Of a stretch of 64,000 bases of DNA, positions 8,386 to 54,186 are shown piece after piece (position 1 is the first letter of the stretch; every line of letters starts with the position of its first letter). The DNA lies in NCBI GenBank assembly GCA_948567375.1, contig OX419762.1, positions 58,112,841-58,176,840 on the forward strand, written 5' to 3'. Position numbers and translations under genes: made by a program. Origin of the DNA: Lunularia cruciata (Eukaryota > Streptophyta > Marchantiopsida > Lunulariales > Lunulariaceae). The notes under the pieces are model-generated. The model did not search any database. It saw nothing but the letters and a program-made list of their open reading frames with translations, and was not told the DNA's origin.

Positions 8386-8568
8386 TGGTGTTGTTTGCTA
8401 TAGCTATACATAGTCACTTGGATGAAATCAACAGATTGAGGATCTAGAACCTCCTCTTCAAATAGTAGCATAACATAAGGTATCCCTATGCTGAGCAATT
8501 GCCAAGTTCTCAAAGGCCATTGGCATCACTCTCCAAAAGATCTCTGCCTATTGAGAACATGCAGTCAC

Positions 8569-10440: not shown

Positions 10441-10859
10441 CTTCCAAACTCTCCATTTTTCCTTTCTTGTAAGCTTGGGTCCAAGATCTAGCTCCCAAGT
10501 ATCCTCTATAACTATCATAGGAATGGAAGATGTACTGATTGGCTACTACAATAGACCCTTGGAAGTAGTAGTATCATGCTTCCAACCACTAGAGATCCCA
10601 ACCTTAGTGTGAAAAACTCCTTCTGATCTGGTTGCAAGCTCCATATGTCCTCTAACAACATCCCAAGTAGACCAAAGGTGTAATCCAAGTAGCCCACGCT
10701 CACCTGGATGGACTCCAAGTAGACCAGTCTCCCTAGTAGCCACTAGTTGTGTCCCAAGAATACCCTGTCCACTCAGTCCATCATCCCCAGCATGTGCCCT
10801 ACATCATCTCGATAGGCACAGGGCTCACAAGTGTCCAAGTGGTGATGCCTATCAAGCAC

Positions 10860-16469: not shown

Positions 16470-16881
16470 TGTAACAATATGGAGTTTAGCGACAAAGTTA
16501 GTCGGGCTTACGAAGTAGCACATAAGACAAAGTAGCCTAGAATATTCTGGAAGTATCCAGGAAGCTTCTTGGGAAGCTTCCCGGTTAGCTTAGCTTGCAC
16601 TTTAAGTAAGTAGCTTCTAGAAGCTTCCAACTAGCTTAGCTTGCACGCCAAGTAGACGGCTCCTAGAAGGAAGCTTCTTGAGAAGCTTCCTAGTTAACTT
16701 GGCTTGCACTCTAAGAAAGCGGCTTGAGTAAGCTGCTTGAGAAGCTTCTCAAGGGCCTTGTATGCTACCTATAAATACCAAAGCCAAAGCTCATGCTAGG
16801 CATTCGGAGTTTTCCCTCATTCAAGTGTCCCAATGTGAGTTGCCATTCTCCTATTTCTCTCCTTGGATTCGGTCTTTTACA
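16470..16881 (+). repeat. 5' LTR of element C
   Basis: 412 bp, TGTAAC to TTTTACA. It is built largely of GAAGCTTC-type palindromes, with a TATAAATA box at 16770-16777. Confidence 0.95.
16615..16627 (+). promoter_or_regulatory. Heat-shock-element-like motif in the C LTR
   Basis: TTCTAGAAGCTTC fits the heat-shock factor site TTCnnGAAnnTTC exactly. It lies about 140 bp upstream of the TATAAATA box. The same core is at 21842-21854 in the 3' LTR, and several GAAnnTTC half arrays surround it. Function is inferred. Confidence 0.5.
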
Positions 16882-16882
16882 T

Positions 16883-16894
16883 TAGTATCAGAGC
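16883..16894 (+). other. Primer binding site of element C, tRNA-Met-like
   Basis: TAGTATCAGAGC differs by one base from the initiator-tRNA-Met site TGGTATCAGAGC and starts one base after the LTR. Confidence 0.85.
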
Positions 16895-17336
16895 AGGAAT
16901 GGGATGGATGGAATTTATGGGCCACCAAATCCACTTCCATCAAACCATTGGGATTTTCACGTCCAAATACTACCCAAGCATCGTTTCACACAATTCATCA
17001 CCTCGCACTTTGGACAAGATTTTATGCATATGATCACCATATCTGAGGAACCCTTGGTGCTTCCAGTTGTAACTTATGGAGAATGGTGGACGTGCTATTT
17101 CTATGTGTTAGTAAATTAGATAGATTGGGAGTGGTGTGATAGAAGAGCAACCATGGCGGCAATACTTGATGTTATCCTTGCTATGCAACAACAAATCGAG
17201 CACCTTACTTGATTGTTGGATGAACGAGATCTTTGACGACAAGAGCAAGTGGAGGAGAGTACCAATTTGAGAAGGAGAAGATCAGATCAGATTCCCTAAA
17301 CCCAAGGTATTTGAAGGCAAGAATCTCCCGGGTGCG

Positions 17337-17999
17337 GTGGAGAATTTTGTGTTTGATTGTGAATGTTATTTTGAAACTACCAATCTACAAGATGAGCGAA
17401 AACAGATTCTCTTGGCTTCTAGCCAATTGGATGGAGTAGCAAAGCTATGGTGGAGATTTCAAGTGGAGCGAGCCAAACGACAACTAGTTGCACCAATCTT
17501 GACATGGGCAGAATTCAAAAGTGCAATAATCAGTAAATTCCAAGCTATAAATGCCACACGAGCTGCACGGGATAAGTTGACAGAGTTGAAACAGATTGGC
17601 TCAGTAAGAAGTTACATCACGCAATTCCAAAACACCCTCATGCAAATTCCAGATATTTTGGAAGGTGAAGCTCTGAATCAATTCGTGAGGGGCTTGAAGG
17701 CAAGAACCAAATTAGAGGTAACCATGCGAGAGCCACAACACTTGGAGGAAGCCATGCGGTTGGCCGAATGTTTTGATTCCTTGGTGGCAACAACTTGGTC
17801 TCGACCTCGACCCCCACAAAGCTTGCCAATACACTACACACAAGTGGAGGAGCCAGCACCAATGGAGATTGATGCAATTCAACAAAGACCACTGGGCATG
17901 GCAGATAGGGAGAAAATGCGACAAAATGGTGGTTGTTTTTATTGTTGCCATTTGGAGCATCGCATTCCTGAATATCCACTTAAGAATGGACGACCTTGA
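17337..17999 (+). pseudogene. gag: Gag of element C
   Basis: 220 codons of capsid domain (AKLWWRFQVERA, SYITQFQNTLMQIP, NQFVRGLKARTKLEV) followed by a knuckle CFYCCHLEHRIPEY whose last cysteine is tyrosine. The N-terminal part can be followed upstream to about 17270 in the same frame but is broken by stops. The listed start is internal to the original gene. Confidence 0.82.
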
Positions 18000-18085
18000 C
18001 AAGTTGCCCAAGTGGAGGTTGTAGAGCAGAATGATCAAGGAAACAAGGAATCCTAGTAGGAGATTTCGAGCTGCCTACTGGGAGC

Positions 18086-18478
18086 TTGATTAGTTCCAAT
18101 GGGATTGAAGGCTCAACCTATGCAAGTTTGCTTCACTTGCAAGGTATGATATCTAATAGAGGTTGTAGGATTTTGGTTGATTCTGGAAGTTTAGAGAATT
18201 GCATGTCTATGCAAGTAGCAAAGGAATTGGGTATTCCTATCAAGCCAGTGATTGGAAGTTGTTTGATGATGGCGGATGGTAGAAAGGGTTCTGCATTCTG
18301 CACCTTGCATCCTGTTACCTTCAAGATTGGGAAGGAGTATTTGGAGTGTATGAGGTTTGTAGTGGCACCTCTACACTATGATATCATTCTGTGTCTACCT
18401 TGGCTTGAATGTCATAAGGTTCAATTCGATTGGACCCGACGCCAAATTCAAGTACAACACCAAGGTAGGAATTTTTGA
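18086..18478 (+). pseudogene. pol: Retropepsin of element C
   Basis: ILVDSGSLENCMS holds the D-S-G active site near residue 35. Behind it YDIILCLPWLECH is the second conserved block of the fold. The frame continues into RT after the stop at 18476-18478. Confidence 0.85.
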
Positions 18479-18530
18479 TTAGGTTGTCTGGCACCTCTGA
18501 GTAAGACACCTAAGAATAGTCAGTCCCAAG

Positions 18531-18710
18531 ATGGGAAGTTTATCAAGAAGGTAGCCATAGAGCGAATCTGGAAGGGAGATGAGTCCCTGGATGGGAAGTT
18601 TGCCAGGAAGGCAACCATGGAGCAAGCTTGGAAGAGAGATGAGTCCCTAGAAGGGAAGTTTGTTAAGGAAGCAACCATAGAGCAAGCTTTGGAGGAAGAT
18701 AAGTCTATAT
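18531..18710 (+). repeat. Three 60-bp tandem repeats in pol of element C
   Basis: Units start at 18531, 18591 and 18651, each opening with a GGGAAGTTT motif and encoding about 20 residues (GKF, then an AT-EQA core, then DES). They lie in the spacer between protease and RT. The period of exactly 20 codons keeps the frame. Confidence 0.88.
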
Positions 18711-20160
18711 TTGCGATGTGGATCAAGCAGATTGCAGAACAATTTGAGGAGGGCCAAGTGCCGCATCAAGCGATGGTTGATCGGATAGCTCAGGAGTTTG
18801 CAGATGTATTTCTGGATGATTTGCCAAAGGGATTACCCTCCGATCGAGGTATGCCCTTCAGGATCGAGTTATTGCCAAGGAGTACTCCAATGAGTAGACC
18901 AATCTATCGACTCTCACCAAAGGAGTTGGAGGAGTTGCAAATAACACTTATAGAGTTGTTGGAGAAGGATTTCATACGACATAGTACCTCTCCTTGGAGA
19001 GCACCGGTACTATTTGTTCCAAAGAAGGATGGAGGACTTTGTTTCTGTATTGATTACCGTGGGCTCAATAAGCAAACCGTGAAGAATGCATATCCCTTGC
19101 CTCGGATCGATGAATTACTTGATCAACTAAGTGGAGCACGTTACTTTTCCAAGTTGGATCTTTGTAGCGGCTATTGGAAAATTCTGATTGATAGAGAGGA
19201 TGTGCAAAAGACTGCCTTTTGCACAAAGTATGGATATTTTGAGTAGAGAGTTCTACCTTTTGGACTCACTAATGCTCAAGCAGTCTTCATGGATCAGATG
19301 CATCGGATGTTGGATAGACTATTGGATCGGTCAGTAGTGGTGTTCTTGGATGGTATCTTAATCTATAGCAAGACAGAGGCAGAACACGTGAATCATGTGC
19401 GAGAAGTCCTGAGACGACTACAACAATGGAAATTTTAATGCAAAAAGTCAAAGTGTGCTTTTTGGCAGAAGGAGGTTACCTTCTTGGGTCATAAGATGTC
19501 ATCAGAGGGGATCAAGATGGAAGAAAAGAAGATCAAGGCCATTACTAATTGGCCCACCTCAAAGGATGCTACAGAAGTACAAGCATTCAATGGATTGGCT
19601 AGTTTTTACCGGCGGTTCATCCACTATTATGCTCATGTGGCTGCACCATTGACTGACCTCTTGGGAAAGAACTCAAGCTTCCAGTGGAACACCAAACATG
19701 AAGAAGCATTCCAAAAGTTGAAACATATGGTGTCTTCAAGACCCATTCTTCAATCATATGATCCTCAACTACCTTGTGTGGTTGATTTTGATGCTTCTAA
19801 CTTTGCAATTGGAGCTGTGTTGCAACAAGAATTTCCAGATGGACTACATCTCATTGCCTTTGTGTCTCGCCGACTAAATACAGCTGAAAGAAATTACTCT
19901 GCTCAAGATTGGGAACAACTTGCAATGGTATATGCCACCAAGGTATGGAGGCATTATCTCTTGGGGAAACAAGTGATCATGCGAACTGATCACAAGCCAT
20001 TGTTGCAGACCTTACACTTGGAGCACATGAAGAGTCAACATCATCGATAGGAAGAGCAACTTCAATTGTTTGACATCAAACTTGAGTACAAACCAGGTCG
20101 GTTCCATGTCATCCCTGATGCTCTATCATGACGACCTGATTTTAAGTCCCTTCCTCTCAT
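18617..20160 (+). pseudogene. pol: RT and RNase H of element C
   Basis: RT shows [23 protein letters not shown] and a catalytic box reading [11 protein letters not shown], where the second aspartate of the XXDD box is glycine, which should abolish activity. RNase H has VDFDASNFAIG, the glutamate in DWEQLAMVYA, TDHKPLL and an IPDALS end. In-frame stops are at 19244-19246 (TAG), about 19436 (TAA), 20048-20050 (TAG) and 20129-20131 (TGA). They fit C-to-T or G-to-A changes at conserved W, Y, W and R positions. Confidence 0.88.
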
Positions 20161-20161
20161 C

Positions 20162-21340
20162 GTGGCAACAATTACGACGGTGTCAATTGACACCAAGATC
20201 CATAACGAGTTTTGGTTAGCTCTGCAACAAGATCCCTTCTTCCAAATGGTACATGGTCGTCGAACAACAGGTGACAAGGAGTACAACACCTTCTCCTTCA
20301 AGGAAGGCCTTCTATTCCATGCGGACCGAATCTATGTTCCAGCCAAAAGTGATCTTCGACTTGTGCGCCTTCAAGAAGCCCATGATTTACCCATCGTTGG
20401 TCACATGGGTGTGGACAAGACCTTGGGTACCCTCCAACGTCAATGGTAGTGGCCCAACATGACACGAGATGTTTGAGAATTTGTCAGATTGTGTGAGAGC
20501 TGCCAACGTAACAAGGCCAGTAACTTGAAGCTGAGTGGAGTCCTTCAACCACTCGCCATTCCATCCGCTTGTTGGGAGCATGTGAGCTTGGATCTCATCA
20601 CATCCTTGCCAAAGACAAAACAAAGACACACCGCAATCGTGGTGTTTGTGGATAAGCTTAGTAAGCAAATCCACTTGGCACCAACCTATGATACCGTGGA
20701 TGCTCCAACCTTAGTGCAAATCTACTTTGACAATGTCTTCAAGCATCATGGGATGCCACATGTACTCATCTCTGACCGTGATCCTCGATTTATCGGGAAG
20801 TTTTGGCAAGCACTCTTCTAGATACTCGGCACCAAGCTTGCTTTGTCCACGGCCTATCATCCTCAAACTGATGGACAAATCGAACGTGAAAATCATACAT
20901 TGGAGGATATGTTGCGGGCCTTTGTCAATGTCCACCATACCAATTGGGATGAATGTCTTGCAGTTGCGGAATTTGCCTACAACAATTCCAAACAAGCAAG
21001 CACCGGATTTTCTCTCTTCTTTCTCAATTTTGGCCAAGATTCGTTTGTTCCAAATTCTCTTCTTGCTCCCCCTCCATCTCAAGTTCCTCATACTTCCACA
21101 TTCTTGACCACTATATCCCAATCGCTCCAACAAGCCAAGTCTCACCTCCTTGTTGCTCAGAATCGCCAAAAACAATATGCGGACCACCATCGTCGTGATC
21201 TCACCTTTGAAGTTGGTGATAAAGTCATGCTATCCTCCAATCACCTCCCTCTCCCACTTGATACTCAAGTTTGTAAACTTGCCTCTAACTGGATAGGACC
21301 CTTTGATATCACCCAAATTTTCTCTCCTGTTGCTTATTGA
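20162..21340 (+). pseudogene. pol: DDE integrase of element C
   Basis: The HHCC zinc region runs from HDLPIVGHMG to CESCQ. The triad is LDLITSLP, LISDRDPRF and the glutamate of DGQIERENHT. C-terminal DLTFEVGDKVML and WIGPFDI follow. Stops at 20447-20449, about 20474, 20819-20821 and 21338-21340 interrupt one continuous frame. Confidence 0.88.
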
Positions 21341-21358
21341 CTTGCCTTACCTTGTCAC

Positions 21359-21628
21359 ATGCGTATCCATCTTGTCTTTCATGTTTCCAAGTTGAAACCC
21401 TTTGTTCCTAACCCCTCTTCCTTTTCCTCTCGAGTTCAACCTCTCCCTCTTCTTGTCCCTATCAATGATCATGAGGAGTACAAAGTTGATCGTATCCTTG
21501 CGCGTCGCAATATCCAACGAGGCCATCGCCAACATACGGAGTATAAGGTCCTTTGGAAAGGGTATCCCCTTCATGATGTCACTTGGGAGCCTCTTTCTCA
21601 CCTCCTGAATGCACAGAAGGCCATCTAG
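21359..21628 (+). CDS. Chromodomain of element C
   Basis: Residues about 38-86 read as a chromodomain. The aromatic cage positions are present in YKVDRIL, VLWKGYP and TWEPLSHL. Chromodomains bind methylated histone H3 tails and direct chromovirus integration into heterochromatin. It is the C-terminal end of the pol frame, separated from the integrase by the stop at 21338-21340. Confidence 0.92.
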   Translation: MRIHLVFHVSKLKPFVPNPSSFSSRVQPLPLLVPINDHEEYKVDRILARRNIQRGHRQHTEYKVLWKGYPLHDVTWEPLSHLLNAQKAI

Positions 21629-21670
21629 GAATTCAAAGCTTCACTGGTGACGAGGACGTCACCAACTAGT

Positions 21671-21682
21671 GGCGGAGGAATA
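21671..21682 (+). other. Polypurine tract of element C
   Basis: GGCGGAGGAATA directly before the TGTAAC start of the 3' LTR. Confidence 0.85.
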
Positions 21683-22108
21683 TGTAACAATATGGAGTTT
21701 AGCGACGAAGTTAGTCGGGCTTACGAAGTAGCACATAAGAAAAAGTAGCCTAGAATGTTCAGGAAGTATCTAGGAAGCTTCTTGGGAAGCTTCCTGGTCA
21801 GCTTAGCTTGCACTTTAAGTAAGTAGCTTCTAGAAGGAAGCTTCTAGAAGCTTCTAACTAGCTTAGCTTGCACGCCAAGTAGGCGGCTTCTAGAAGGAAG
21901 CTTCTTGAGAAGCTTCCTAGTTAACTTGGCTTGCACTCTAAGAAAGCGGCTTGAGGAAGCTTTTTGAGAAGCTTCTCAAGGGCCTTGTATGCTACCTATA
22001 AATACCAAAGCCAAAGCTCATGCTAGGCATTCGGAGTTTTCCCTCATTCAAGTGTCCCAATGTGAGTTTCCATTCTCCTATTTCTCTCCTCGGATTCGGT
22101 CTTTTACA
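21683..22108 (+). repeat. 3' LTR of element C
   Basis: 426 bp, with a second GAAGGAAGCTTC-type unit that makes it 14 bp longer than the 5' LTR. The heat-shock-like core is at 21842-21854 and the TATAAATA box at 21997-22004. ACTAG follows at 22109. Confidence 0.95.
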
Positions 22109-22880: not shown

Positions 22881-23325
22881 TAATCAGTTCCTTTACACAA
22901 CACAACTCAACTCAGATCAGTACTTGATCTATCACTCTTTAAATTGCCAACAACTGGGCACTGATTACAATCAAGTTTCACCCACTCTAGCTAAGAGAAT
23001 CCAAGTGACGCTCGCCGACCTATGTCAACCATAGCCAGGAACTCGAAGGCTCAACATCAAAGAAGTGAGCTCTTTGGAGCTACACTTTGAAAGTATACCC
23101 TTGGACTGGAGCTAGGTTTGAAACCCTAACGGTCCCATTGACGCCACACCCAATGGTGCAAATGGTGCAAAGTGACGGTGGGCCCCACCATGAAGTCACT
23201 ACCTCAAACACAAAATCTGACCATCGGAATGTTGTCTGTGAGTGATTGCTAAAATATCTCTAACTACTATCACTGCAACTCCAGTGTCCGAGCAATCTAG
23301 ATGCGATACTACGAATGGAATGACA
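22881..23325 (-). repeat. Repeat A1, 5' terminus of B-minus
   Basis: Minus-strand start TGTCATTCC at 23325 matches the TGTCACGCC start of the plus copy at 43643. No B-type repeat precedes it. The flank is copia sequence. Confidence 0.85.
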
Positions 23326-40992: not shown

Positions 40993-41481
40993 TTGAAAGA
41001 TCTAGTCAATGAGTTTCAAGATGTCTTTCTTGATGATTTACCCTCAAGATTATCACCAAAAAGGAAAATAGATCATACAATTGAGATACTTTCTGAGAAG
41101 ACATCTCTTTGTAAGGCCCAATATCAACTATCACCTTATGAGTTAAAGGATGCAAGACTAAAATTAAGGATATGCTACAAAAAGGGTTTATCCAGCCTAA
41201 CATATCACCATATGGAGCTCTTGTCTTGTTTATGAAGAAGGACGATACAATGCAAATGTGCATTGACTAAATCAGAAAATGTTGAAGAACAAATACCTAT
41301 TACCTCACATGGATGACTTGTTTAATCAACTCAATGGAGCACAACACTTCACAAAACCCAATCCCCGGAGCGGTTTTAACCAAATTAGGATTGTGGAAGA
41401 AGATGTACACAAAATTGCCTTGAACAAGGTATAGTCACTTTGAGTACCTAGTAATATTGTTTGGCCTCACCAACACACTAG
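40993..41481 (+). pseudogene. RT N-terminal part of element F
   Basis: [17 protein letters not shown] and AQYQLSPYELKDARL are the start of a chromovirus RT. Degraded NPIP-like and FGLTNT coding lead up to the solo LTR at 41482. Confidence 0.8.
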
Positions 41482-42065
41482 TGTAATACAAACAGCTAGA
41501 CATGTTATCTAGAGGTGAAATTGGCTTGGTAACATCTAGGAGGATGTTGTGTACAATGGGCTAGGTAGATCAGACAGAAGTGTCACCAAAAGAGTACTTC
41601 TACTAATAGGGAAAAAGCCAAAAATAGCTTGAAAAATTTTAAGCCATTTTTGGAGGCCTAAACGGATGAATTAGGCATTGAAAATGGAAAATTTCTACCC
41701 TTTAGGAGAAAAAGCTTACCTTCTCCTCCCCATGATTTTCTCATTGAGATCTTTCCAATGGTACCTTATCCATGCAATTTTGAGTTTCCTTCAAGAAGAT
41801 TCTCTAAAGATTCCCTTTAGTCAAACTCATTTGACCAACTAGATAGGACAAGGACTGATATGTCACTCATCCAAACAACTAATCCAAGGATGGAGCTTGC
41901 TGACAAGTCATCAATCCATGTTTCTGATCCAAGGGTGGAGCTTCCTTTGAGAGGATCCTCTTTGCTATATAATAAAGGGAAGGTGCTCCTTTGGAGCATA
42001 GGAGGAGTGAGTGTGAAATATGGGTTTTCTCTCTTGAAGAGTTCTCTTGTCCTTGGAGTATTACA
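41482..42065 (+). repeat. Solo LTR of the F family inside the F RT
   Basis: 584 bp, TGTAATAC to ATTACA, flanked by ACTAG (41477-41481) and ACTAA (42066-42070). Without it the RT reads from FGLTN directly into [11 protein letters not shown]. Confidence 0.88.
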
Positions 42066-42915
42066 ACTAACCACTTTCATGAATTTGATGAATGACATAT
42101 TTCATCCATACTTGGATAAGTCTCTTATCATTTTCCTTGATGACATCTTAGTCTTTAGTAGGACAAGGAAAAAACACAAGCAATATCTACGAGAAGTCCT
42201 CCAAATTTTGTGACAAAACCAATCGTATGCCAAATCTCAAAGTGTGAGTTTGGAAATCTAAAATAGATTATGTGGGGTATAGAGTAAGTGAAAGAAGAGT
42301 CCATGTTCTAATAGGCAAATAAATGTCATTCAAAAATTGGATGCTCTAAAAGATCAAAATTAACTCAAGAGTTTCTAGGGATTGATTGGGTTCTATCATC
42401 AATTTTTCAATGACTTCTCCAAGGTTGCACAACCTCTAATGACATTACTTAGCAAGAGAAAGAAGTGGATGTGGTGAACCGCACAAGAATTAGCCTTTCA
42501 AGAATTGAAAGATGCATTATTACAGGCACCAATGTTGAAATTGTATGACTCAACACGTCAAATCAAGCTAGCTATAGATGCATCAAGCATTATGATAGGA
42601 GCAATCCTACAATAAAAATGAAGTGATGAATGGCACCCAATTACATATTTCTCTCAAAATTTTTTACCAATAGAGCACAACTATGACATCACAAAACAAG
42701 AAGAGCTACCTGTTATCCTTGCAATCAAGCATTGGAAGCACTATCTTTGCAAGAAGGCATTTGTGGTGGAGACAGACCACAAACCACTAGTCTACCTTGA
42801 GATATGGAAAAATTTATCTTGTTGATATATTTGTTGGGCAGAGTGGAGACAATGATTCAACATGATGATCACATATATAGAAAGCAATAAGCAACTTGTA
42901 GATGCATTTAGATGA
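42066..42915 (+). pseudogene. RT palm and RNase H of element F
   Basis: [13 protein letters not shown] is the intact RT catalytic box (42122-42160). RNase H follows with LAIDASSIMIGAIL, KQEELPVILAIKHW and TDHKPLVYL, separated by many stops. Confidence 0.85.
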
Positions 42916-42959
42916 ATGCCCATAGTATAAAATTTAGTTGTGGAGGTATAGATAAACCC

Positions 42960-43642
42960 AGATTTTTGGCCAAGGATTCTTATTCCTACAAAGATGAACC
43001 CACAGATTGTAGGAGCTCAATCATCCAAAGGTGTAACCATTACCCAAGGACTCACTTTTTGTGTTGGCAAGTTATGGATCCTAGATGCTCCAGAACTAAA
43101 AGCCATCATCCTAATGGAATGTCATGATTCCACCATTGTAGGTCATATTGGAATAGACAAGATCTTAGATATAATCAAACATCATTACTATTGGTCCAAG
43201 ATGAGCAAAAATGTGATGGAGTATGTTTGAAATTGACTATTATGTCAACAAAATAAAACCTCCAATCAGACTCATGCACGACTCCTTCAACCCCTCCTTA
43301 CTCCTACACAACATTAGGTGTAAGTCAAACATGGATTGGGTTTTTGAATTGCCAAGACCACCTTAGGTTTTGACTCCATTGTAGTCTTTGTAGACCGACT
43401 CAACAAAATGATTTATGTGTGTCCTATGACCAAGGATGTTACTGTTACACTATTAGCTCAATTGTACTTAGTTGTGGTCATTTCTCACCATGGACTATCT
43501 TGAGTGCTCATCACCAATCGAGATACTCAATTCACTAGTTTGTTTTAGAGAACACTCTTTGGTATCTTCAAAACTGAAGTTGCCATGCCTACGGCATATC
43601 ATCCATAAACCAATGGATAAAAAAAGTTGTCCAATTGCACTA
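42960..43642 (+). pseudogene. Integrase of element F, N-terminal and core part
   Basis: HDSTIVGHIGIDK and HHYYWSKMSKNV form the zinc-binding start. The core is followed up to TAYHP and NG-KK coding just before 43642, where element B is inserted. Confidence 0.8.
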
Positions 43643-44077
43643 TGTCACGCCATTTGTAGTTCCGCATCTAGCTGCTCAGACACTGGAGTTCCTGTGATAG
43701 TAGTTAGAGTTATTCTAGTAGTTTCTCAAGGACTACTTTCTGACAGTCTGATTTGGTGTTCGGGGTACTGACTTCACCGTGGGGCCCACCGTCACTTTGC
43801 ACCGTTCGCACCGTCAAGTGTGCCGTCAGCGGGACCATTAGGGTTCCAGTGCTAGCTCGAGTCCAGGGGAGTATAGTTTTGAAGTGAGCTCTCTGATGTT
43901 GAGCCTTTGAGTTCTTGGCTATGGTGGACAGAGGCCGGCGAGCGTCATCTGGATTCTCTATGCTTGAGTGGGTGTGGCTTGACTGTAATCAGTGCCCAAT
44001 TGTTGGCAGTTTATAGAGTGACAGATCAAGTACTGATCTGAGTTGAGTTGAGTTGAAAGTGTTAAGCAATCTGATTA
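43643..44077 (+). repeat. Repeat A1 of element B
   Basis: 435 bp homologous to A2 (52865-53318), about 4 percent different by eye, plus small indels. Similarity to A2 stops at CTGATTA (44077). Confidence 0.9.
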
Positions 44078-45194
44078 CATCAGAGAAGTGAAGTCAGGGG
44101 GAAATCGGGTGCAGGAACGTTGAGTGTTGGTGGTATCTCCAAGCTTGGTGGATCGTGGTAGCTCGATTCAAGTTCTGTGTTTCCCTAGTGTGCAGAAGCT
44201 CGTTCAAGTGATTCAGATTTGGCAGTTAGGCGGACGGTGTGCGGAAGCGCTGGCCAAATTTCAACCAAAGAAGGAGCAATTTTCGAGTAGTGTTGTGATT
44301 TTGAGCTCAAGAGGTGAAGGCAGGACCAATTTGCTGCGAGTTGGGCTCAAAAAGTGAAATTGAAGGTGGAGTTTGGAAGCTCTTCTCATGAAATTGTGAT
44401 TTGGAAAAACCCGTTTTGTCAATTTGGCTCGAGTGGAAAGTTAGCGGGGGATTTGGCGGACAACCATCTTTGGGGTTTACGTCAGATTTACGTCAAATTT
44501 GGCTGAATTTTGGCGTTTAGAGGCTTCGAGGCATAGGGCTGTGGGCTATGAGAGGCTACGAAGGCCTAGAAGGGCCAGCAAGCCCGCTTGCTGGCGTGAG
44601 GCTAGCTAGTTTAGAGTAGATCTTGGTCATTGGTTGGCAAAATCTGCCTTTCTTGCTAGATTGTGCACAATAGGGTTTGACCCCTAGATCTCTTGTTTCC
44701 TAGACTGGTGCCCTAGCCAACTGGTCCACCCTCACTTGTTGTCCTAGTGACTACGCCACTGTTATCTATACACATGTAGCTTTGGCTAGGAGAGGCAGTT
44801 TGATCCCATTCTTGGTGATCCTGGTAGCTTAGGACTTAGATACGAACTGCTCTTATGTCAAATGCCAAATGGTGGCAGAGTCAGTCCCGTGTTGTGTTAT
44901 GAGATGGAGGGTTTTCGTTTAGATTTCTTGTGATTGGATCCTCTCCATTCTCTTTTTCCTGTTTGTGCACCATGTTTGTGTGAGGTGCCCTGACTTTTGA
45001 GCGTTGGTGCTCTGGTGTGCTCTCGGTGGTGAGGCTGGAGTGATGACAAGTCAGACTACCTTTGTTTCTCTCCGGTGAGGCAAGAAGTGATGACCTGCAG
45101 ACCGTGAGAGTGCGTGTTATGATGGTAGGTTACAGGTTGCACTTCTCCTAGTGTAGTTATCTTGGTTAGAGTTACATTAGTGGGTGGTGTTTAG
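44078..45194 (+). other. Leader of element B
   Basis: About 1.1 kb without a clear gene. TGGTGGCAGAGTCA at about 44875 is kept in both copies and begins with TGG, so it is a candidate primer site. The matching tRNA is not identified. Confidence 0.65.
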
Positions 45195-46700
45195 TTGGTG
45201 TTGGCACGTGGTGGTGTTGGCACTTGGTGGGGTACTTGCGGTTGCGACTTGTGGTTGCAGTTGGTGGTTTGGGTTTGCTGTTGCAATTACGTGGTCACGA
45301 CGGAGTTCTTTGGAGATTCTAGAGTTAGCCTTGCAATACGCAGTGGGTTTACTCGGAGTGGTGCTCGGTATCAACATGTATCTCAGGTCCTAGTGAGGGA
45401 GGAGATTGACTCTAAGTTGGAGTTCAACACAGGAGCTGATTCAGTTGAGAGTGCACTTGGTGTGTCCACACCGTTGTTGTGGGACATGGAAGAGATTTAT
45501 GGGGCCTCCAAAGGCCCTAGGCGTTACTCTGGTACAGTAGGTACCATTGAGTTGGATGACTTCATCCAGGAGTTTGATAGTTGGTGTGATCTGCAGCAGA
45601 TGCATAACCCGACTTTGTTCACACCCTTCATGGCATGGAAGGGGTTGTTCTAGCATCTGGAGGGTCCGCCGATGGATGACTACCATGAGTTCAGGAGAGC
45701 TCATTTGGAGGAGATTGAGTTATGGAGACAATATTGGTCTCCACACTATGTCTCCATCACTTCAGGCTCGGTGGCCAAGAGTAGATCGGCTGTACCCACG
45801 AGTTCTAGCTCGAGTAGTGTTGGTGGAGCTAGTGGAGGTGCACTAGCTAGAGATAGTGCTACTACGAGTGGAGGTACCGCTGCAGGAGGTGGTGTGGTAC
45901 CGGGGTTTAACCCCATGGTTGAGTTCTTCCTATGTTTGAGGCAGAACTACCAAGGAGTGCGGACTAACAAGCTGAGGAGCTTGCAGGAGTTCCAGCGGAA
46001 GGCTGGAGAGAGCCTACGCGAGGCATACACTCGCATGAGGCGGCTGATCAGTTTCACTCAAGGAGTTACTGAGGCCCAAGCAGTCCAGTTTTGGTATGGG
46101 ATACTAGATAGGGAGTTGCAACGTAGAGTTTGTGATGCTACGTTGTTGCAGGCTACTTTGCCCACTTTGGCAGTAGTCTTCGGTTTGGCTAAGCGTATTG
46201 AGCTCAACATGGTGGAGGAGAGAGTGGTGACATCTGGATTTGGTAGGGAGACCTCATCCACAGCTGTGACTTCTTCTAGAGTGCAATAGAGTGCACCACG
46301 CCCAATTGGTTTTCGAGGACAAGGTGGACAGCCCAGATCCTATGAAGCGAGTGGAGGGCCTAGTGGAGTTAGACCCTTTCCCTCATTTTTGGGTCAACAG
46401 TAGCCAATGAGTGGTGGTGTTTCTTGTTGGACTTGTGGTGGACCTCACCATAGGAGAGAGTGTACTCAAGGCAGCGGACCTGATACCTCTGGTGCATCAC
46501 AGCCAGCACAGAGGCAACGTGAGCACTACCACAGATTTGGTCACACTAGTGACCGGTGTTTTGACCTACACCCAGAGTTACGGAGTGGTAGGGCTGCTAT
46601 GGCAGGTAGTAGAGGAGCTCCAGTTCATGCAGGACGAGGTGGTAGAGGTGGTGGTAGAGGATCTACACCTAGTAGGGTGCAGTACCTGCTCTTACTTCTG
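45195..46700 (+). pseudogene. gag: Gag of element B with zinc knuckles
   Basis: One frame (frame 3) with stops at 45651-45653, 46287-46289 and 46402-46404 (all TAG). Capsid-like segments: GTIELDDFIQEFDSW, then a long serine/glycine-rich linker, then SLQEFQRKAGESLREAYTRM and a helix-rich end. CWTCGGPHHRREC is close to a CCHC knuckle. A second one, YHRFGHTSDRC, has lost its first cysteines. The start codon is uncertain. The protein is expected to form the particle and bind RNA. Confidence 0.75.
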
Positions 46701-46708
46701 ACACAACT

Positions 46709-47880
46709 ATGGCTACTCGGATTGAGCAGTTGGAGCAGAGATTGGCTAGTATGGCTATTGCTCAGAGGAGATCAGATTCGGGTGTTGAGGCTTCCACCTC
46801 ATATGTTGGTGATAGAGATGCTTTGGACTTCATGTGTGGAGCAGCACAGGTAGATGCATCTGCAGCAGTGACTAGGAGTGCAGTACGTGCTCCAGAGCCT
46901 GAGGAGCATTAATGGAGTTGGACCCACAGAGAGGAGAGGTTGGGAGATAGGTCAGACTTCCCTAATCTTTCATGCTATCTGAGGCATTGCAGACGACATC
47001 CATGGTTCCTAGACGTCCCAGTGCAGGTGTGGTAGGTGGTGATGGAGTACCTGATGGAGTACCTGCTAGTCAGCCACCTGCTACTACACAGACTGAGTCT
47101 AGCATGATGTTGGAGGCGGCTCAGCTGATTATGCGGCATCCTTTGTTTTCAGCCAGTGACATGTTTACATTGGGAGTAGCCCCAGCCCCAATGTTCCGGT
47201 TGGCTGCCACGTTGTGTGAGAGTAGGGATGGTGCAGTTCCTACTACTAGAGCAGAGGTGGTTGGTAGTGGAGCTGACTTGGTTGAGGAGCATGGGATCCG
47301 TTCAGCGACCAACGGTTTATGGCAGGCAGTAGCGGCTAGACTGGAGGAGTTGCCTGCTAGACCGGCCTTTGAGAGAGCGCGGTTTACACCTGGTGTTGTC
47401 CTATTGGATAACCAAAGGGGGATCTTTCGTTTGGTGGGACCTTCAAGGAAGGTCTATACACCACAGAGAGTCTTGTTAAACTCTGGTGTGTAGCCTCTTA
47501 TGTTGGAGAAGGTTGCAGTTGTCGGTCTGGAGTTACGGAAGACCGATGTGGAGAGGTGTCCATTTCAGATCCAGACATCTCTTGGTGGTGGTTTGACACA
47601 GTACATCACACGTGGAGAGCTTGTTGTCCAAGTTCAGCCTGGTCATCCGACTGATAGCTCGGTGGTGAGAGCTCAGGCTATTGCGACAATAGCTGAGTCA
47701 TATGATGTGCTAGTTGGGGGAGCAGTGTTATACCCTATGGGTTTCAGCATTGACTATTGGGAGGAGACAGCCTCTTATAGACCTGGTTGGCAGTGTGGTG
47801 AGGGACAAGTATGTCGCCTACCAGTACGCTTCAGTAGTGGCAGTCTTGGCTCACTACAGTCCAGGACCATGGCAGCATGA
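46709..47880 (+). pseudogene. Retropepsin and linker region of element B
   Basis: A coiled segment (46709-46915) is followed after a frame change by 46972-47493 and 47500-47880. VLLNSGV at 47470-47492 is the retropepsin active site with aspartate changed to asparagine. QPGHPTDSSVVRAQ and YDVLVGGAVL form the second conserved block. The stop at 47491-47493 interrupts the domain. Confidence 0.65.
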
Positions 47881-47919: not shown

Positions 47920-49415
47920 TTGTTGGAGGGGAACGCCCATGCAGAGGGTACTCTAGTACTAGAGGAGATCACTCGGCTATGGAGTACGAGTGGGATTGTT
48001 CCATCCACCTTGGATGTTCCATTGTGGAGTTCAGAGGAGGCATTGCAGCAACATGCAGATCAGTTGGTGCAGCAGGCTTGGAGTGGAGCCTTTGTACCAT
48101 CAGGGGATGAGTGTGAGGATGAGCCTCCAGAGGCAATTGCTTTGACACCTCTGGATACCACACTCATTGCTTGGCAGTATCCAGTAGAGGGGATATGCCT
48201 ATTGGAGTTGTTTGGTGGGATCAGCACCGGACTAGCTGCGGTGTTACAGGCGGGTATACGAGTACAGAGGTACTTGTATGTAGAGAGAGATGAGACTGCT
48301 AGGCAAGTCTCTCTACATCATGTGGCACACTTGGCGTATTGGTATCCGGAGTTATTACCGATGTCAGCAGTCAGAGGTTACCAGAAGGCCCTACCATGAG
48401 ACATTCCTTACTGGGGGCGCATGACCTAGAGAGACATGGGCATGTTCACTTGGTGATTTCTGGATGGCCATGTCAGGGACATACACGTGCGGGCCATGGT
48501 TTGGGTCTTCAAGATCCTCGTTCTGGTGTGTTTTGGGAGATGTTACGGATACTACGACATCTCCAAGTTCATCAGTCTGTTTCTCTAGCTTACCTTTTAG
48601 AGAACGTTCCTTTGATGGGTGATTCTCGCACTAGAGTGGTGGCGAGTACACATTAGGTCCATTCTTGGATGGAACCTGCTGTATTGTTAGATGCAGCCAG
48701 AGTGGGATCACGGGCTCATTGTCTTCGTCTTTGGTGGACGAACCTCTAACCCATAGAGGTTCTACAGCGTAGTTATGATGGGATTCAGCGACTAGACCAC
48801 ATTCTTGTTGATGATATCTTGGATGTTGGGCGTCAATCTCAGACAGTGGTAGTGGCTGATAGGTCACCTATGGCAGTGGTGAACCTAGTTGGACAGCCTA
48901 GAGCTGCATTTCCCACCCTCATGAGTTTCCCAGGCTCTCATGCTTTTCGAGAGGGAGGACCTGGACTTGTTTGGGACTCACAGTTACAGTAGTTGGTGGA
49001 GCCCAATGCTGATGAGAGAGAGCGGGCGATAGGTTTTTGCACCGATATTACCATTGTTCCAGTAGTGTCAAAGGCATCCAGGCGTCAGGTGTTAGGTCAG
49101 GCTATGGACCTGAATTGTTTGACCTGGATTGTGAGCCTTGGCTTGGCAGAGCAGCGTAGAATGCGCTTGATAGGCATCACCACTCGAACACTTGTGAGCC
49201 ATGTGCCTATCGAGACGATTCAGGCACATGCTAGGGGCGATGGACCAAGTGGACATGGTATTCTTGGGACACATCCAGTAGCTACTAGGGAGAGTGGTCT
49301 ACTTGGAGTCCATCCAGGTGAGCGTGGGCTACTTGGATTACACCCTTGGTCCACATGGGATGCAGCTAGAGGACGTGTGGAGCTTGTAGCCAGAGTGGAG
49401 GGAGTTTTCGCATAG
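47920..49415 (+). pseudogene. C5 cytosine DNA methyltransferase encoded by element B
   Basis: Transfers a methyl group from S-adenosylmethionine to cytosine C5. Motif I (cofactor site) LELFGGISTGLAA lies at about 48200-48240, and an acidic ribose contact in YVERDETARQV at about 48278-48310. Catalytic motif IV is GWPCQGHTRAG at about 48463-48495 and motif VI is LLENVP at about 48596-48613. The target-recognition part is about 48650-48960. Motifs IX-X (ADERERAIGF, VLGQAMDLNCLTW) are at about 49008-49130. The order I-IV-VI-X is canonical, so it is not a permuted plant DRM enzyme. A one-base loss near 48400 shifts the frame from 1 to 3, and stops at 48654, about 48749 and 48990 follow. The gene sits between protease and RT in both copies. 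Confidence 0.85.
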
Positions 49416-49589
49416 AGGTTGGGACCTCTAGTGGTCGGGAGCATGACACTATTGCTCCCAAGGGCCCAGTGTAGCAGCCAGTCAGTACGTCTTCCACTCT
49501 TACTACAGTTACAGAGGATACTTGGGAGCCAGATCTTGGACCCAAGCTTACTGGAGAGGAAAGACGGAGGGTTTGGAGGTTCTTGAGGA

Positions 49590-51334
49590 GTCACACGAGT
49601 TGTTTTGCCTTCAGTATGAAGGATTTGGGTGCTCTAAAGGGACCTGGTATACGGATTGAGCTGACTAGCGACACACCAGTTTTCCAACGTCGTTATCGAT
49701 ATAGTGAGATGGAGAGGACATTGATTTAGAGCCGGAGTAGTGACCTTTTTGAGGCTGGTTTGGTGGAGATTTCACATGGAGAGTATGCATCAGCGACAGT
49801 GATGCCAGCCAAGAAGGATATGCATGGCAACTATACAGATAGGCGGATGTGTGGAGATTACCGTCCTATCAACCGACAGACCAGGGCTGATCGGTATGCC
49901 ATGCCTACACCGGAGGAGATTTTTGATGCGATTGGGCATGCAAAGGTCTTCAGTACTTTGGATCTTCGAGCGGGATATCATTAGTTGCCGATCAGGGAGG
50001 AGGATAAGTCCAAGACAGCATTTTGGGCTATTGATCCTCACGGCAAGGATGTGTTATATCAGTGGAGGTTCTTACCATTTGGGTTGAAGAACGCTCCTGT
50101 TGAGTTCCAGAGGGTCATGGATAGGATCCTAGCTGGATTGGATTTTTCTCGGTGCTATATTGATGACATTTTGGTTTATAGCACTATTGTGGAAGAGCAT
50201 GAGAGACAGTTGTTGGAGGAGTTTGAGAGGTTGAGATCTCATGGACTCAAACTACATCCTGCGAAGTGTAGGTTCTTCCACGAGCAGGTTGAGTATTTGG
50301 GTCACACTATCTACCTCGGAAGACTTGGTGTTCAGCAGACCAAGGTGGAGGCTATTGCACGTATTCCTTGGCCTACGGATGTGAGCAGAGTGTGAGCATT
50401 CCTTGGGTTGGCAAACTTCTATCGCCGCTATGTTAGAGGATTTAGTGCCATTGCCAAGGCCTTGACGAAGCTGACCAAGCTTACACAGGAGTGGTGTTTG
50501 GGAGATGAGCAGGAGAGAGCTTTTGTAGAGCTCAAGGAGAGGTTGACATCTGCTCCTATTTTGAGAAGATCGATCAGGGGATGACCATTCCAGGTTCACA
50601 CTGATTGGAGTATGTTGGGGCTTGGAGCGGTGCTCACCCAACATGATGATGAGGAGAAGGAGTTTGTGGTGGCCTATGCTAGTCGCTCCAACAATTCAGC
50701 GGAGGCGAAGTATAGTTCATATGAGGGAGAGTGCTTGGCAGCAGTTTGGGCAGTAGCACATTTCCAATGTTACCTATTTGGTAACCCCTTCACTCTCATC
50801 TCTGATCATCAGCCGCTGAAGTGGTTGATGGAGTCCGACAAGCTTTCGGGGAAGCTTGCACGATGGGCTCTGATTTTACAGGAGTATGATTTCACGGTTG
50901 TTCACAGACCTGGAGTGGTGAACCATGATGCAGATGGGTTGAGTAGAAACCCATGTCCCAGCCAGCAGGATCAGACCGGAGCACATTGGCATGGTGAGAC
51001 AGATGAGGAGATGGTGCCAGGTTGGCATGCATCGGCCTTTCTGTGTATATTTGCAGAGACTTTGGTGGTATCTCTCTCAACGCATACAAGAGGAGTTATT
51101 GAGGTCATAGATCCAAAGAGTGAAGATATTGGTACAGTTCAGCGAGACATTCATGATGATGTCTTAGTGATGGACTATCTTTGCACTGGTGTTGTGGGTG
51201 GCACAGTTGGGGCCAAGGAGAGAGACCGTGTTCTTCAGCGAGCCAGACGGTTCAGATTGGAGGGTAGACACCTTTTGCGTGTATGGAAGGATGGTAGAGT
51301 GCGAGTAGTACCACTTCCATCACAGAGACCATAG
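49590..51334 (+). pseudogene. pol: RT and RNase H of element B
   Basis: RT shows RRMCGDYRPINRQ, FSTLDLRAGYH, FLPFGLKNAPVEF and an intact catalytic box CYIDDILVYS (50155-50184). RNase H has VHTDWSMLGLGAVL, YSSYEGECLAAVWA, SDHQPLKWL and NHDADGLSR, all four acidic residues present. One frame throughout, with stops at about 49727, 49982-49984, 50393-50395, about 50582 and 51332-51334. They stand mainly at Q or R positions of the family. Confidence 0.9.
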
Positions 51335-52030
51335 TTGGTCCGTCATGCTCATGAGGAGCTAGGACATTTTGGAGTAAAGCATACATATAGCTTACTTCAG
51401 AGTCATTATTGGTGGCGCGGTATGCAGACCGAGGTGTAGCAGTTTGTTGCCAGATGTATGGTTTGTGACCGAGTTAGAGCATCATTCAATGCTCCTACGC
51501 CACAGTTACACCCATTACCTATCATGGGATTGGGTTACCATTGGAGTTTGGACTTCACCGGACCTTTACCGCTGACTGTGAGACATCATCGGTATGTTTT
51601 GGTGATGGTGGAGCACTTCTCCAAGTGGATTGAGTTGGTGGCACTTCCTGACAAGTCTAGTGAAGGGACAGCTTACTCGTTCCTAGATCAAGTTCTTAGT
51701 CATTTTGGTGCACTAGTTGAGGTTTTGACTGATCAGGGTACAGAGTTCTTGGGAGAGTTTCAGGTCTTGTGTGACAAGGCTTTGATTGATCATTGTACTA
51801 CATCCCGAGATCACCGTGAGGCAAATGGCTTAGCAGAGAGAGTGGTCCAGACGGTGAAGAGAGGATTGCAAAAGTATGGTTTGCAAAGAGGCCACTTGGG
51901 AGATTGGGATCTCCAATTACCATGGTTGGCCATGGGCTATTGGTTCAGCCGGCAAGCCTCATTAGCATCCTTCTCTCCATACTTTCTACTCTATGGACGA
52001 GATCCAGATTTACCTGCAGCCATTCGTTAA
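51335..52030 (+). pseudogene. pol: DDE integrase of element B
   Basis: HHCC zinc region: HAHEELGHFG to CMVCDR. Catalytic residues in LDFTGPLP, LTDQGTEFLG and the glutamate of NGLAERVVQTVKR are all present. A DDE integrase explains the target duplication and excludes a tyrosine recombinase in this part of pol. Stops at about 51438 and at 52028-52030 (TAA). Confidence 0.9.
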
Positions 52031-52588
52031 GATGCTACTGTAGTTTTGGACTTGGATGACCCCGATGTATGGATGAGCTCATGTTCTCAGCGGGCAAAGA
52101 TCTTTCGGAGAGTGATGCCAATGGCCTTTGAGAACTTGGCGATTGCTTAGCATAGAGATACTTTACGCTATGCTACCATTTGAGGAGGAGGTTATAGACC
52201 CTCGATTCGTCGATTTCATCCATGCGACTATGTATATCTATAGCAGACAGCACCAATGACACTTGATGTTTCTACAAGCCGCACTATCTTGAGAGTGCGC
52301 TAGGTTTTGCCATCTGGAGTCCTTGTGTTAGAAGGACGTGATGGTGTTGTTTGGAAGGATCATGTGCGCAATTGTGCGCCATGCCACCTCCCAAACATTG
52401 ATGGTACTATGGACCCAAGCTTGGCACTTGTACGTGCAGGCTTGAGGTGTATGTTATGTGGCTCTTTTGGTGGAGCTGCTACTATGTTAGTGTGTGATAG
52501 CTGTTCAAGAGGATGGCATATGGCATGTATGACTCCTCCCCTCATGGTGGTTCCTCAGGGACAGTGGTTATGTCCTAGATGTACTTGA
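52031..52588 (+). pseudogene. Pol C-terminus of element B with PHD finger
   Basis: After a degraded integrase C-terminal part, the frame 52307-52588 carries a full C4HC3 PHD finger: CMLC, CDSC, GWH, MAC and CPRC, with the invariant tryptophan two residues before CPRC. Spacing is C-2-C-11-C-2-C-4-H-2-C-14-C-2-C. PHD fingers recognise histone H3 tails. In chromoviruses a chromodomain stands at this place. Confidence 0.88.
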
Positions 52589-52740: not shown

Positions 52741-52756
52741 CCAGCTAGGGGGGCGA
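52741..52756 (+). other. Polypurine tract of element B
   Basis: CTAGGGGGGCGAT directly before repeat B1. In an ordinary LTR element this would mark the start of the 3' LTR. Confidence 0.65.
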
Positions 52757-52862
52757 TTGTGGCACTTTAGAGTCTATGTATGACTTATGTGTGAGTTGTG
52801 CTTCTATAGTGTATGATGTTGACAGCGATGTATGTTGTGTAGCGATGTATATACGCACAACA
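52757..52862 (+). repeat. Repeat B1 of element B
   Basis: 106 bp, TTGTGGCAC to GCACAACA. It matches B2 (53319-53424) with three differences noticed. Two bases (GC) separate it from A2. Confidence 0.92.
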
Positions 52863-52864
52863 GC

Positions 52865-53318
52865 TGTCACGCCATTTGTAGTTCCGCATCTAGCTGCTCG
52901 GACACTGGAGTTCCAGTGATAGTAGTTAGAGTTATTCTAGTAGTTTCTCAAGGACTACTTTCTGACAGTCTGATTTGGTGTTCGGGGTACTGACTTCACG
53001 GTGGAGCTCACCGTCACTTTGCACCGTTTGCACCGTCAAGTGTGCCATCAACGGGACTGTTAGGGTTCCAATGCTAGCTCGAGTCCAAGGGGTATAGTTT
53101 CAAAGTGAGCTCCAGAGAGCTCACTTCTTTGATGTTGAGCCTTCGAGTTCCTGGCTATGGTGGACAGAGGCCGGCGAGCCTCACCTGGATTCTCTATGCT
53201 TGAGTGGGTGTGGCTTGACTGTAATCAGTGCCCAGTTGTTGGCAGTTTATAGAGTGACAGATCAAGTACTGATCTGAGTTGAGTTGAGTTGAGTTGAAAG
53301 TGTTAAGTAATCTGATTA
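52865..53318 (+). repeat. Repeat A2 of element B
   Basis: 454 bp homologous to A1. It starts TGTCACGCC and ends CTGATTA, where B2 follows directly. Confidence 0.92.
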
Positions 53319-53424
53319 TTGTGGCATTTTAGAGTCTATGTATGACTTATGTGTGAGTTGTGCTTCTATAGTGTATGATGTTGACAGCAATGTATGTTGT
53401 GTAGCGATGTATATACGCACGACA
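53319..53424 (+). repeat. Repeat B2 of element B, 3' terminus
   Basis: 106 bp copy of B1 that ends GCACGACA. The duplication ACTA and the continuing F integrase coding follow at 53425. Confidence 0.92.
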
Positions 53425-54186
53425 ACTATCAAGGACATGCTTTGAAGCTTCAACCTAAAGGAGCAAGAAAGGTAAGACACCTTACTTCCATTGGTGGAAT
53501 TTCCCTACAACAATTTAGTAAATGCATTTACATAGGTCACACTATTCTTCCTCATGTGTGGAGAACACACTTTCACACCTTCAAGCTTGGTAAAGATCCA
53601 ATCAGTAGTGAAAAAATTTGATATTTTCAATACTTTTATTTTTAAAATCCAACATGGTGTAGAGAACACCAAACATAGGTTGCAAATAGCCCAAAATTTA
53701 TAGAGAAAATATGCAAATGTACATTGTAGGCACATGGAATTCATCGGGGATCAAGTATGGTTGTCCACAACCAATCTCACATTAGTTGGCCCTTGTAGGC
53801 CTTCCTTGTTTTATTATCCCTTTTCCCATTATCTATTGAATTGATGTAGTGGTTTATCACCTTAAGCTGCCATCCCACATGAAGATCCATCTAGTGTTCT
53901 ATGTTTCCTTGCTATGTAAATATACATCCGACCACTTCACTTTCCTTCCATATAAGAAGCTCAACCTTGTACAACACTCATTGATGGCATGAAGGAATAT
54001 GAAGTCAAATGCATTTTCTAGAAATGTATCCGTGGTACCCGCCATCTACATGTGAAATATCTCATACATTGGAAATGGTACCTCTTCTATGAGGCAACAT
54101 GGGAGCCTTTAGCTAACTTGATCAATGCATTGGTGTTGGTGTAATCCTCTGAACAACAACTTGGCAATAACAATATTGCATCTTAA
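53425..54186 (+). pseudogene. Integrase C-terminus and chromodomain of element F
   Basis: Resumes the F integrase after element B: VEFPYNNLVNAFT, FLMCGEHTFTPSSL and GDQVWLSTTNL. The chromodomain is at about 53985-54140. It is readable as KYLIHWKWYLFYEATWEPLANLI, with the WxxW pattern of the methyl-lysine cage, although several frames are needed for the first strand. Confidence 0.82.

Follow-up and report, generated by a model that had tools for sequence, protein, structure and literature searches.

A predicted DNMT3-type methyltransferase in split-repeat Ty3/gypsy-type retrotransposons of Lunularia cruciata

Retrotransposons that carry a C5 cytosine methyltransferase (MT) are known from algae, as a first-pass annotation of the DNA studied here had stated. 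In the accessible part of de Mendoza et al. 2018 (PMC5890265), the closest case, KnitGypsy-Dnmt3 of Klebsormidium nitens, has a non-permuted, intronless Dnmt3-type MT in a Gypsy polyprotein under purifying selection, with repeats arranged as in DIRS and domains typical of Gypsy (Figure 4 legend); the authors interpret it as acquired independently by the K. nitens lineage, where its copies are fewer than those in Symbiodinium. The same text poses as an open question why transposons carry a de novo methyltransferase although host methylation silences them. Here, we analyze a 64,000-nucleotide stretch of the Lunularia cruciata genome (the window; assembly GCA_948567375.1, contig OX419762.1, positions 58,112,841 to 58,176,840), which contains two copies, A (plus strand) and B (minus strand), of a very abundant family of ~9.9-kb Ty3/gypsy-type retrotransposons with an MT between protease and reverse transcriptase (RT).

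Compared by published description, the family shares with KnitGypsy-Dnmt3 both the Dnmt3-type MT inside a Gypsy polyprotein and DIRS-like repeats in the order A-coding-B-A-B, and differs in occurring in bryophytes and environmental relatives and in very many copies. SymbioDIRS-Dnmt3 of dinoflagellates likewise has a Dnmt3-type MT in Pol and A-coding-B-A-B repeats (accessible part of PMC5890265), with a tyrosine recombinase where the present family has a DDE integrase. The split direct repeats (A1 ... B1 A2 B2) are those of Ngaro/PAT elements, as the accessible part of PMC6681497 describes them; the family departs from these in its DD35E integrase, Ty3-type RT, and 4-bp target duplications, and Pfam scans of its open reading frames (ORFs) gave no tyrosine recombinase domain.

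The class itself is already known. In titles and abstracts (subscription papers, preprints, and supplements lay outside the search), we found no such elements in bryophytes and no leaky stop or 4-bp duplications in them. A search of the accessible text of PMC5890265 returned no mention of PHD, Marchantia, or "target site," and duplications are named there only for the long interspersed nuclear element (LINE) family; no leaky stop was seen in the parts covered, which exclude figures and supplements. Features not found in print are an MT upstream of a leaky UAG, a Pol-terminal PHD finger, and A-coding-B-A-B repeats combined with a DD35E integrase, 4-bp duplications, and a palindrome at the B/A junction. 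The family makes the question of transposon-borne MTs testable in land plants, as it has relatives in the genetic model Marchantia and is abundant, with some apparently young copies.

The methyltransferase and the family that carries it

The first-pass annotation had placed a gypsy-type element with its own C5 cytosine MT at 47920-49415 and a second minus-strand copy, with the same domain in the same place, at 10860-11810. Both claims proved right, and the positions were accurate to within a few hundred bases; the annotation had overlooked the leaky stop, the PHD finger, and the split repeats. The Pfam DNA methylase profile PF00145 matches the window at 48303-48653 (+; E=6.6e-8; 32.8 bits against a cut-off of 22 bits), and alignment to L010, a copy with long open frames, delimits the domain in copy A (93% identical) and copy B. 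Both window copies are broken; in copy A, the PF00145 match shifts frame near 48405-48417 and 48657-48992 has no long frame. The coding features are as follows.

45195-46870, plus: copy A gag region, in broken frames, with a zinc-knuckle-like CWTCGGPHHRREC recognized by eye
46903-47829, plus: copy A protease region, by alignment; active-site motif degenerate in this copy
48202-49178, plus: copy A putative DNMT3-type MT domain, broken by a frame change and stops (profile match, alignment to L010)
49475-50914, plus: copy A RT and RNase H (profile match, alignment to L010)
51275-52429, plus: copy A integrase; open copies show a zinc-binding domain and DD35E
52430-52585, plus: copy A C-terminal PHD finger (alignment to L010)
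10844-11800, minus: copy B MT domain, 75% identical to L010 (alignment)
8056-10542, minus: copy B RT, RNase H, integrase, and PHD finger, decayed (alignment)

The annotation had also called such an element rare, which does not hold within this genome. In the 566 Mb searched, copies were seen on eight contigs of 60-85 Mb each (~558 Mb in sum); the published assembly, 580 Mb, is described in the accessible part of PMC9985172 as enlarged by Ty3/Gypsy bursts. For PF00145, 2161 candidates gave at least 123 scored matches, of which many lie in long open frames and at least four are host-gene exons; for an RT query, 53,287 candidates gave at least 96, each scored match being 98-100% identical. Both counts are lower bounds. 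The annotation had named copies without the domain as a refuting finding; we looked for such copies among 20 chosen by RT out of the 96 scored, reading a 127-nt stretch with motif IV, and found none. All 20 carry motif IV of the catalytic region at the expected distance upstream, so the family has the MT as a regular component and not as the trait of a stray copy.

For the selection, leaky-stop, and repeat analyses we used 29 copies (L009-L013, L015-L036, and window copies A and B), taken from the PF00145 list mainly because of their long open frames, so that the sample leans to intact copies; L014 and L005-L008 (too short) and L001-L004 (host genes) were excluded. Motif IV (GWPCQG) is kept in 28 of the 29 copies and motif VI (LLENVP) in 27, and in this long-frame-leaning sample 14 copies have a full-length, open MT domain. 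Chance or artefact is ruled out by the genome-wide PF00145 matches, the window match, and the conservation of motif IV.

Several lines of comparison point to a DNMT3-type enzyme. First, a profile of 12 MT domains searched against PDB returned DNMT3A first (2.4e-20), followed by 4onj, which we take to be a DRM (6e-10), chains named DRM2 (2e-8), a bacterial cytosine methyltransferase (4e-8), M.HhaI (8e-7), and DNMT2 (5.5e-5). No DNMT1 or CMT structure is among the 54 matches at E<=0.01, which rules out an enzyme of that type. A single-sequence search also put DNMT3A on top, with M.HaeIII mixed among weaker DNMT3B matches. Second, an AlphaFold2 model of the L010 MT domain (pLDDT 88.2, pTM 0.88; alignment of 23 natural sequences) was used in a fold search, and all 50 matches listed, of 183 at E<=0.001, are DNMT3 structures. 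Third, motif I precedes motifs IV and VI in all 12 aligned MT rows, in agreement with the canonical, non-permuted order claimed before, and the DNMT3-like signatures AHR.R..W and ER..GF, taken from the profile-PDB alignment, are present. By profile, fold, and motif order, the element MT thus appears to be a DNMT3-type C5 cytosine methyltransferase. It is not a DRM, as it lacks the permuted motif order that the host DRM (L002) has.

The surrounding genes are those of Ty3/gypsy, with the order RT-RNase H-integrase and a DDE integrase (DD35E spacing of 35 in L013); copy B has the same domain order, decayed. By its repeats the family is not Ty3/gypsy, because it has A-coding-B-A-B instead of identical long terminal repeats (LTRs) at both ends. 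The protease motif LLDSGAQP occurs in 23 of the 29 copies, and Retrotrans_gag matches copy A only below cut-off. The C-terminus of Pol is predicted to be a PHD finger, with Pfam PHD matches in L013 and L012. Chromoviruses within Ty3/gypsy have the order RT-RNase H-integrase and a C-terminal chromodomain; the present family has the same gene order and a chromatin-reader-like C-terminus, with a PHD finger for the chromodomain, and adds the MT and split repeats.

We estimated selection on 28 copies (copy B excluded). The pooled pairwise ratio of nonsynonymous to synonymous change (dN/dS) was 0.37 for the MT, 0.32 for the RT, and 0.49 for the integrase (378 pairs each for the first two and 300 for the third). 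Variants that recur in three or more copies are more likely to be older than insertion; for these, the normalized ratio (N/S) was 0.23, 0.29, and 0.39, respectively; among singletons it was 0.60, 0.51, and 0.69. Since the N/S of shared variants is 0.23 in the MT against 0.29 in the RT, the MT appears to be constrained about as tightly as the RT. Repeats A1 and A2 (see below) diverge by 0.002 to 0.060 in 16 copies (0.05 in copy A), and the lower values suggest that some insertions are young.

Split repeats, target duplications, and a UAG between methyltransferase and reverse transcriptase

The repeats and their boundaries lie in the window as follows.

43639-43642, no strand: copy A left target-site duplication ACTA, partner of 53425-53428
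43643-44077, plus: copy A repeat A1, left element end, starting TGTCACG and ending TCTGATTA
44078-44095, plus: boundary CATCAGAGAAG after A1, self-complementary with the A1 end, a putative primer-like site
52743-52756, plus: polypurine-like AGCTAGGGGGGCGA directly before B1, of putative function
52757-52862, plus: copy A repeat B1, 106 bp
52859-52868, no strand: B1/A2 palindrome GACAGCTGTC, AACAGCTGTC in copy A, a candidate internal attachment site
52865-53318, plus: copy A repeat A2
53319-53424, plus: copy A repeat B2, right element end
53425-53428, no strand: copy A right target-site duplication ACTA, partner of 43639-43642
22881-23325, minus: copy B repeat A1
7781-7884, minus: copy B repeat B1, after AGCTAGGGGAGCAA
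7519-7772, minus: copy B repeat A2, truncated

The order B1 (105-106 bp), two nucleotides, A2 (439-489 bp, mostly 449), B2 (106 bp; 118 in L019) was read in 17 copies; L009, L011-L013, and L015, represented by end pieces only, are not among them. The A2/B2 joint is exact in 16 of the 17; L019 has five extra bases there, CATCA, the same as those following A1. Duplications of 4 bp flank the A1 start (TGTCACG) and the right B end (GCACGACA) in 20 of 22 copies (6/6, 9/10, and 5/6), a test that covered 22 of the 29 and left out L010, L016, L023, L026, L033, L036, and copy B. DIRS, Ngaro, and PAT elements are not known to make a target-site duplication, and the family differs from them in this trait.

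Could the odd repeats be post-insertion damage, or solo repeats lying next to an ordinary LTR element? Rearranged or variant forms do exist: L026 and L031 end after B1. We give this idea almost no credence, and regard it as refuted by the regular layout and the target duplications. The B1-2 nt-A2-B2 arrangement is common to 17 copies, the duplications abut A1 and a B end, and in copy B too, whose repeats are 79-85% identical, the boundary known from copy A comes after A1, and A2 comes after B1. As a control, the end repeats of two other gypsies in the window are of the plain paired kind. The A-coding-B form of L026, whose 5' end was not seen, and of L031, which keeps its 4-bp duplication, could reflect either insertion of a one-repeat circle or later recombination between B1 and B2.

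The B/A palindrome reads GACA-GC-TGTC and is decayed in some copies, and the purine tract before B1 shows small variants. Both the palindrome and the stop codon described below recur in an environmental relative, L058, whose MT is 52% identical. A 16-mer, CACGACAGCTGTCACG, consisting of the palindrome and three bases on each side, is common to the family and L058, where it lies ~100 bases after L058's own purine tract. In a search of viral contigs the 16-mer occurs in eight, none of which matches element parts at E<=1e-3, and we take these as chance matches. Because the 16-mer also occurs in unrelated DNA, its weight lies in its position. For comparison, HIV-1 integrase cleaves the palindromic junction of two LTRs symmetrically at CA in vitro, mostly yielding a four-base overhang and having no established cellular role, as stated in the accessible part of PMC1905944; in the present family, the conserved palindrome stands where the genomic ends actually lie. 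An inverted repeat also straddles the end of A and the coding leader, at 44070-44085 in the window and ~7525-7565 in L058; the sequences differ and the pairing is kept. The boundary after A may thus fold as a hairpin in both, which hints at self-priming.

A single UAG divides Gag-protease-MT (ORF1) from RT-RNase H-integrase-PHD (ORF2).

49472-49474, plus: conserved UAG at the MT/RT boundary of copy A, followed by CAGCCA (UAG-CAR-YYA)
10546-10548, minus: UAG at the MT/RT boundary of copy B, followed by a second TAG

All 29 copies have TAG as this stop, and the next six bases fit CAR-YYA in 27 (CAGCCA in 22, CAGCTA in three, CAGTCA in two), the exceptions being L018 (CAGCTT) and copy B (TAGCCA). 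In the copies open on both sides (L011, L012, and L013), ORF1 and ORF2 share one frame, and L058 has TAG CAA TCA, again in frame, at the same place. P0182, a metagenome protein of 2358 aa, has Gag, protease, MT, RT, integrase, and PHD in the same order as one frame without a stop. UAG-CAR-YYA is the readthrough signal of tobamoviruses (tobacco mosaic virus type; accessible part of PMC3542737); here, the same UAG and hexanucleotide are sited between the MT and RT of a retrotransposon, and readthrough is predicted from sequence. We infer that the MT is made in Gag amounts and the RT in a small fraction of these, which predicts a large supply of the enzyme.

A proposed route of integration and a role for the methyltransferase

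We consider it fairly probable that one explanation joins these features: an MT made at Gag level, complementary DNA (cDNA) of the form BA-coding-BA, a circle cut at the palindrome, and marking of the cDNA or circle by the MT. Most ribosomes would stop at the UAG, so that the MT is made at Gag level and packaged, and occasional readthrough would give the Pol fusion. Reverse transcription primed at the site after A1 and at the purine tract before B1 would produce a linear BA-coding-BA, whose ends would be joined, A to B, into a circle. The integrase would cut the B/A palindrome, free recessed CA ends, and insert A-coding-B-A-B; cutting after CA on both strands would leave two-base recessed ends such as integrases use. 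The genomic order would then result from circularizing BA-coding-BA at A/B and opening the circle at B/A, and the CATCA of L019 looks like a remnant of a primer-site copy at the joint. The PHD finger may direct the integrating element to chromatin. Our best guess for the MT is that it would methylate the cDNA or the circle, which would be marked like host DNA until integration; cDNA methylation was also proposed in the accessible part of PMC5890265.

Several observations weigh against this explanation. L019 and L012 lack the 4-bp duplication, and L019 is also the sole copy with the extra CATCA. The integrase catalytic Glu is changed to Lys in four of 28 copies, which fits decay. Circles, readthrough, packaging, and MT activity are all predicted from the DNA. 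The KnitGypsy enzyme had no activity in yeast, a result its authors call inconclusive (accessible part of PMC5890265). The site after A1 resembles, by eye, no standard tRNA primer site, and the A2/B2 joint, exact in 16 of 17 copies, is cleaner than end-joining might give. The last two points would suit a DIRS/PAT-like route, in which RNA-templated circularization across the internal B1A2, bridging both ends, replaces LTR-type reverse transcription and the DDE integrase opens the circle; the layout is indeed that of the Ngaro/PAT split repeats (A1; B1, A2, B2; accessible part of PMC6681497). We regard this route as possible but rather unlikely. The purine tract directly before B1 and the primer-like site directly after A1 suit LTR-type synthesis, and the primer-site bases at A2/B2 in L019 speak against an RNA template.

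A different view of the enzyme is that it silences or restrains the element's own copies, or marks insertion sites, rather than protecting a DNA intermediate. DNMT3 enzymes establish methylation de novo, which would suit such a role, and the KnitGypsy authors raised both restraint of retrotransposition and insertion-site effects (accessible part of PMC5890265). The very high copy number of the family and A1/A2 divergence down to 0.2% argue against this view, which we think unlikely. Base composition bears on the same point, with few comparisons. Observed/expected CpG is 0.42-0.50 and CHG 1.07-1.20 in five element copies, against CpG 0.13 and CHG 0.43 in the MT-less gypsy at 1-7436, CpG 0.46 and CHG 0.49 in another MT-less gypsy of the window, and CpG 0.43 and CHG 0.69 in the rest of the window. 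CHG in the five copies is thus above both MT-less gypsies, possibly reflecting less host CHG methylation of element copies, and CpG is above one of them and not above the other. CpG depletion, as a trace of self-methylation, was not seen in young copies, whose CpG is 0.46-0.50, relative to these two gypsies, which also counts against MT marking of the element's DNA.

If a palindrome-opened circle is the preferred precursor, as we propose, then a DDE integrase, split repeats, and an internal palindromic site would together make it a normal route of integration. A circle-integration route was once proposed for retroviruses and later abandoned; here, it would be the normal one, with proviruses circularly permuted as A-coding-B-A-B. 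We add one link: a circular stage would be common to all MT-bearing elements whose repeats are split. More tentatively, in a generalization that has some chance of being right and may well fail, methyltransferases would be carried by retrotransposons with a circular DNA stage: a DDE element would integrate from a circle cut at its repeat palindrome, and a Gag-level DNMT3 would methylate the exposed circle. The lineage would then extend from bryophytes to eukaryotes known only as unnamed environmental sequences; KnitGypsy, SymbioDIRS-Dnmt3, and adenine-methylase DIRS would be parallel cases and SymbioLINE-Dnmt, a LINE, an exception. If true, this suggests one common cause, the circular intermediate, for methylases in DIRS-like and Gypsy elements.

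Relatives, host methyltransferases, and neighboring elements

Searches for protein relatives gave 54, 165 (120 listed), and 26 proteins. Among the matches listed, the named bryophytes are Marchantia polymorpha, M. paleacea, Riccia sorocarpa, Calypogeia fissa, Sphagnum fallax, S. troendelagicum, and S. tenellum. Of the named relatives, those from liverworts and Sphagnum are closest; the remaining proteins are mostly unnamed metagenome sequences. No Klebsormidium name is among these listed matches, and a search of viral contigs with P0027 and the 12-domain MT profile gave no relative. P0059 and L058 bear bacterial labels, which we take as mis-binning. L058 (CADCWO010000201.1, filed under Synechococcales cyanobacterium) is a eukaryotic-type Gag-Pol retroelement with a PF13650 protease match below cut-off; its ends overlap by 127 bp, so that it is circular in the assembly, and collapsed repeats would look alike.

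The MT occupies three positions. In type I it lies after the protease and before the RT (bryophytes, P0013-P0023, and P0182); it also precedes the RT in P0179 and P0184. In type II it lies between RNase H and integrase (P0027-P0050 and P0052, as fragments show, and P0180, P0181, P0183, and P0185), and in type III at the start of the RT-bearing ORF (P0051, P0053, P0054, P0175, and P0177). A PHD finger is found in L. cruciata, the Marchantia gene model P0170, and most of the type II proteins that extend into this region; scores in type III are weaker, with none at threshold in P0054. In P0033, P0043, P0048, P0049, and P0051, motif IV has EC for PC (WECQ, PECK, FECQ) and retains the catalytic Cys, a change unusual among C5 methyltransferases.

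We placed these enzymes beside host genes recognized by their motifs.

Genome C7 and C1: L001 and L004, host DNMT3-type genes with introns, partly recovered
Genome C1: L002, a host permuted DRM
Genome C8: L003, a host CMT-like exon

In an MT tree of 56 rows, 52 element MTs form one clade (100/99) apart from L001, L004, L002, and human DNMT3A, which are the only four native rows; no Klebsormidium sequence was found to include. Within it, type I is a clade of 22 rows (99/98); type II (97/93) and type III (98/94) are each set off by a single branch. The RT tree, with 27 rows, likewise sets off each of the three types by a single branch; P0175-P0185 are in neither tree. Because both trees group by MT position, the MT seems to have traveled long with these elements and to have changed place within them. 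The same trees make a recent capture of a host DNMT3 gene within liverworts very improbable, even though the host retains the DNMT3-type genes L001 and L004: the element clade stands apart from them, and MT positions track clades in both trees. The first-pass annotation had held that motif order excludes capture of a DRM-type enzyme. This stands for a permuted DRM. It does not stand beyond that, as the element enzyme belongs with DNMT3/DRM and bryophytes also retain non-permuted DNMT3 genes, two of which, partly recovered, are in this genome; it is the tree, not the motif order, that argues against capture from the present host.

Three other elements adjoin the window copies. A gypsy with ordinary paired repeats (16470-22108) is nested in the copy B leader, and another (1-7436), whose end repeats (the first truncated by the window start) are 100% identical over 300 bp, ends beside copy B's 3' part. 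The region immediately left of copy A, 41231-43545, has weak RT- and integrase-like matches (~22-27% identity) and is probably another, old element.

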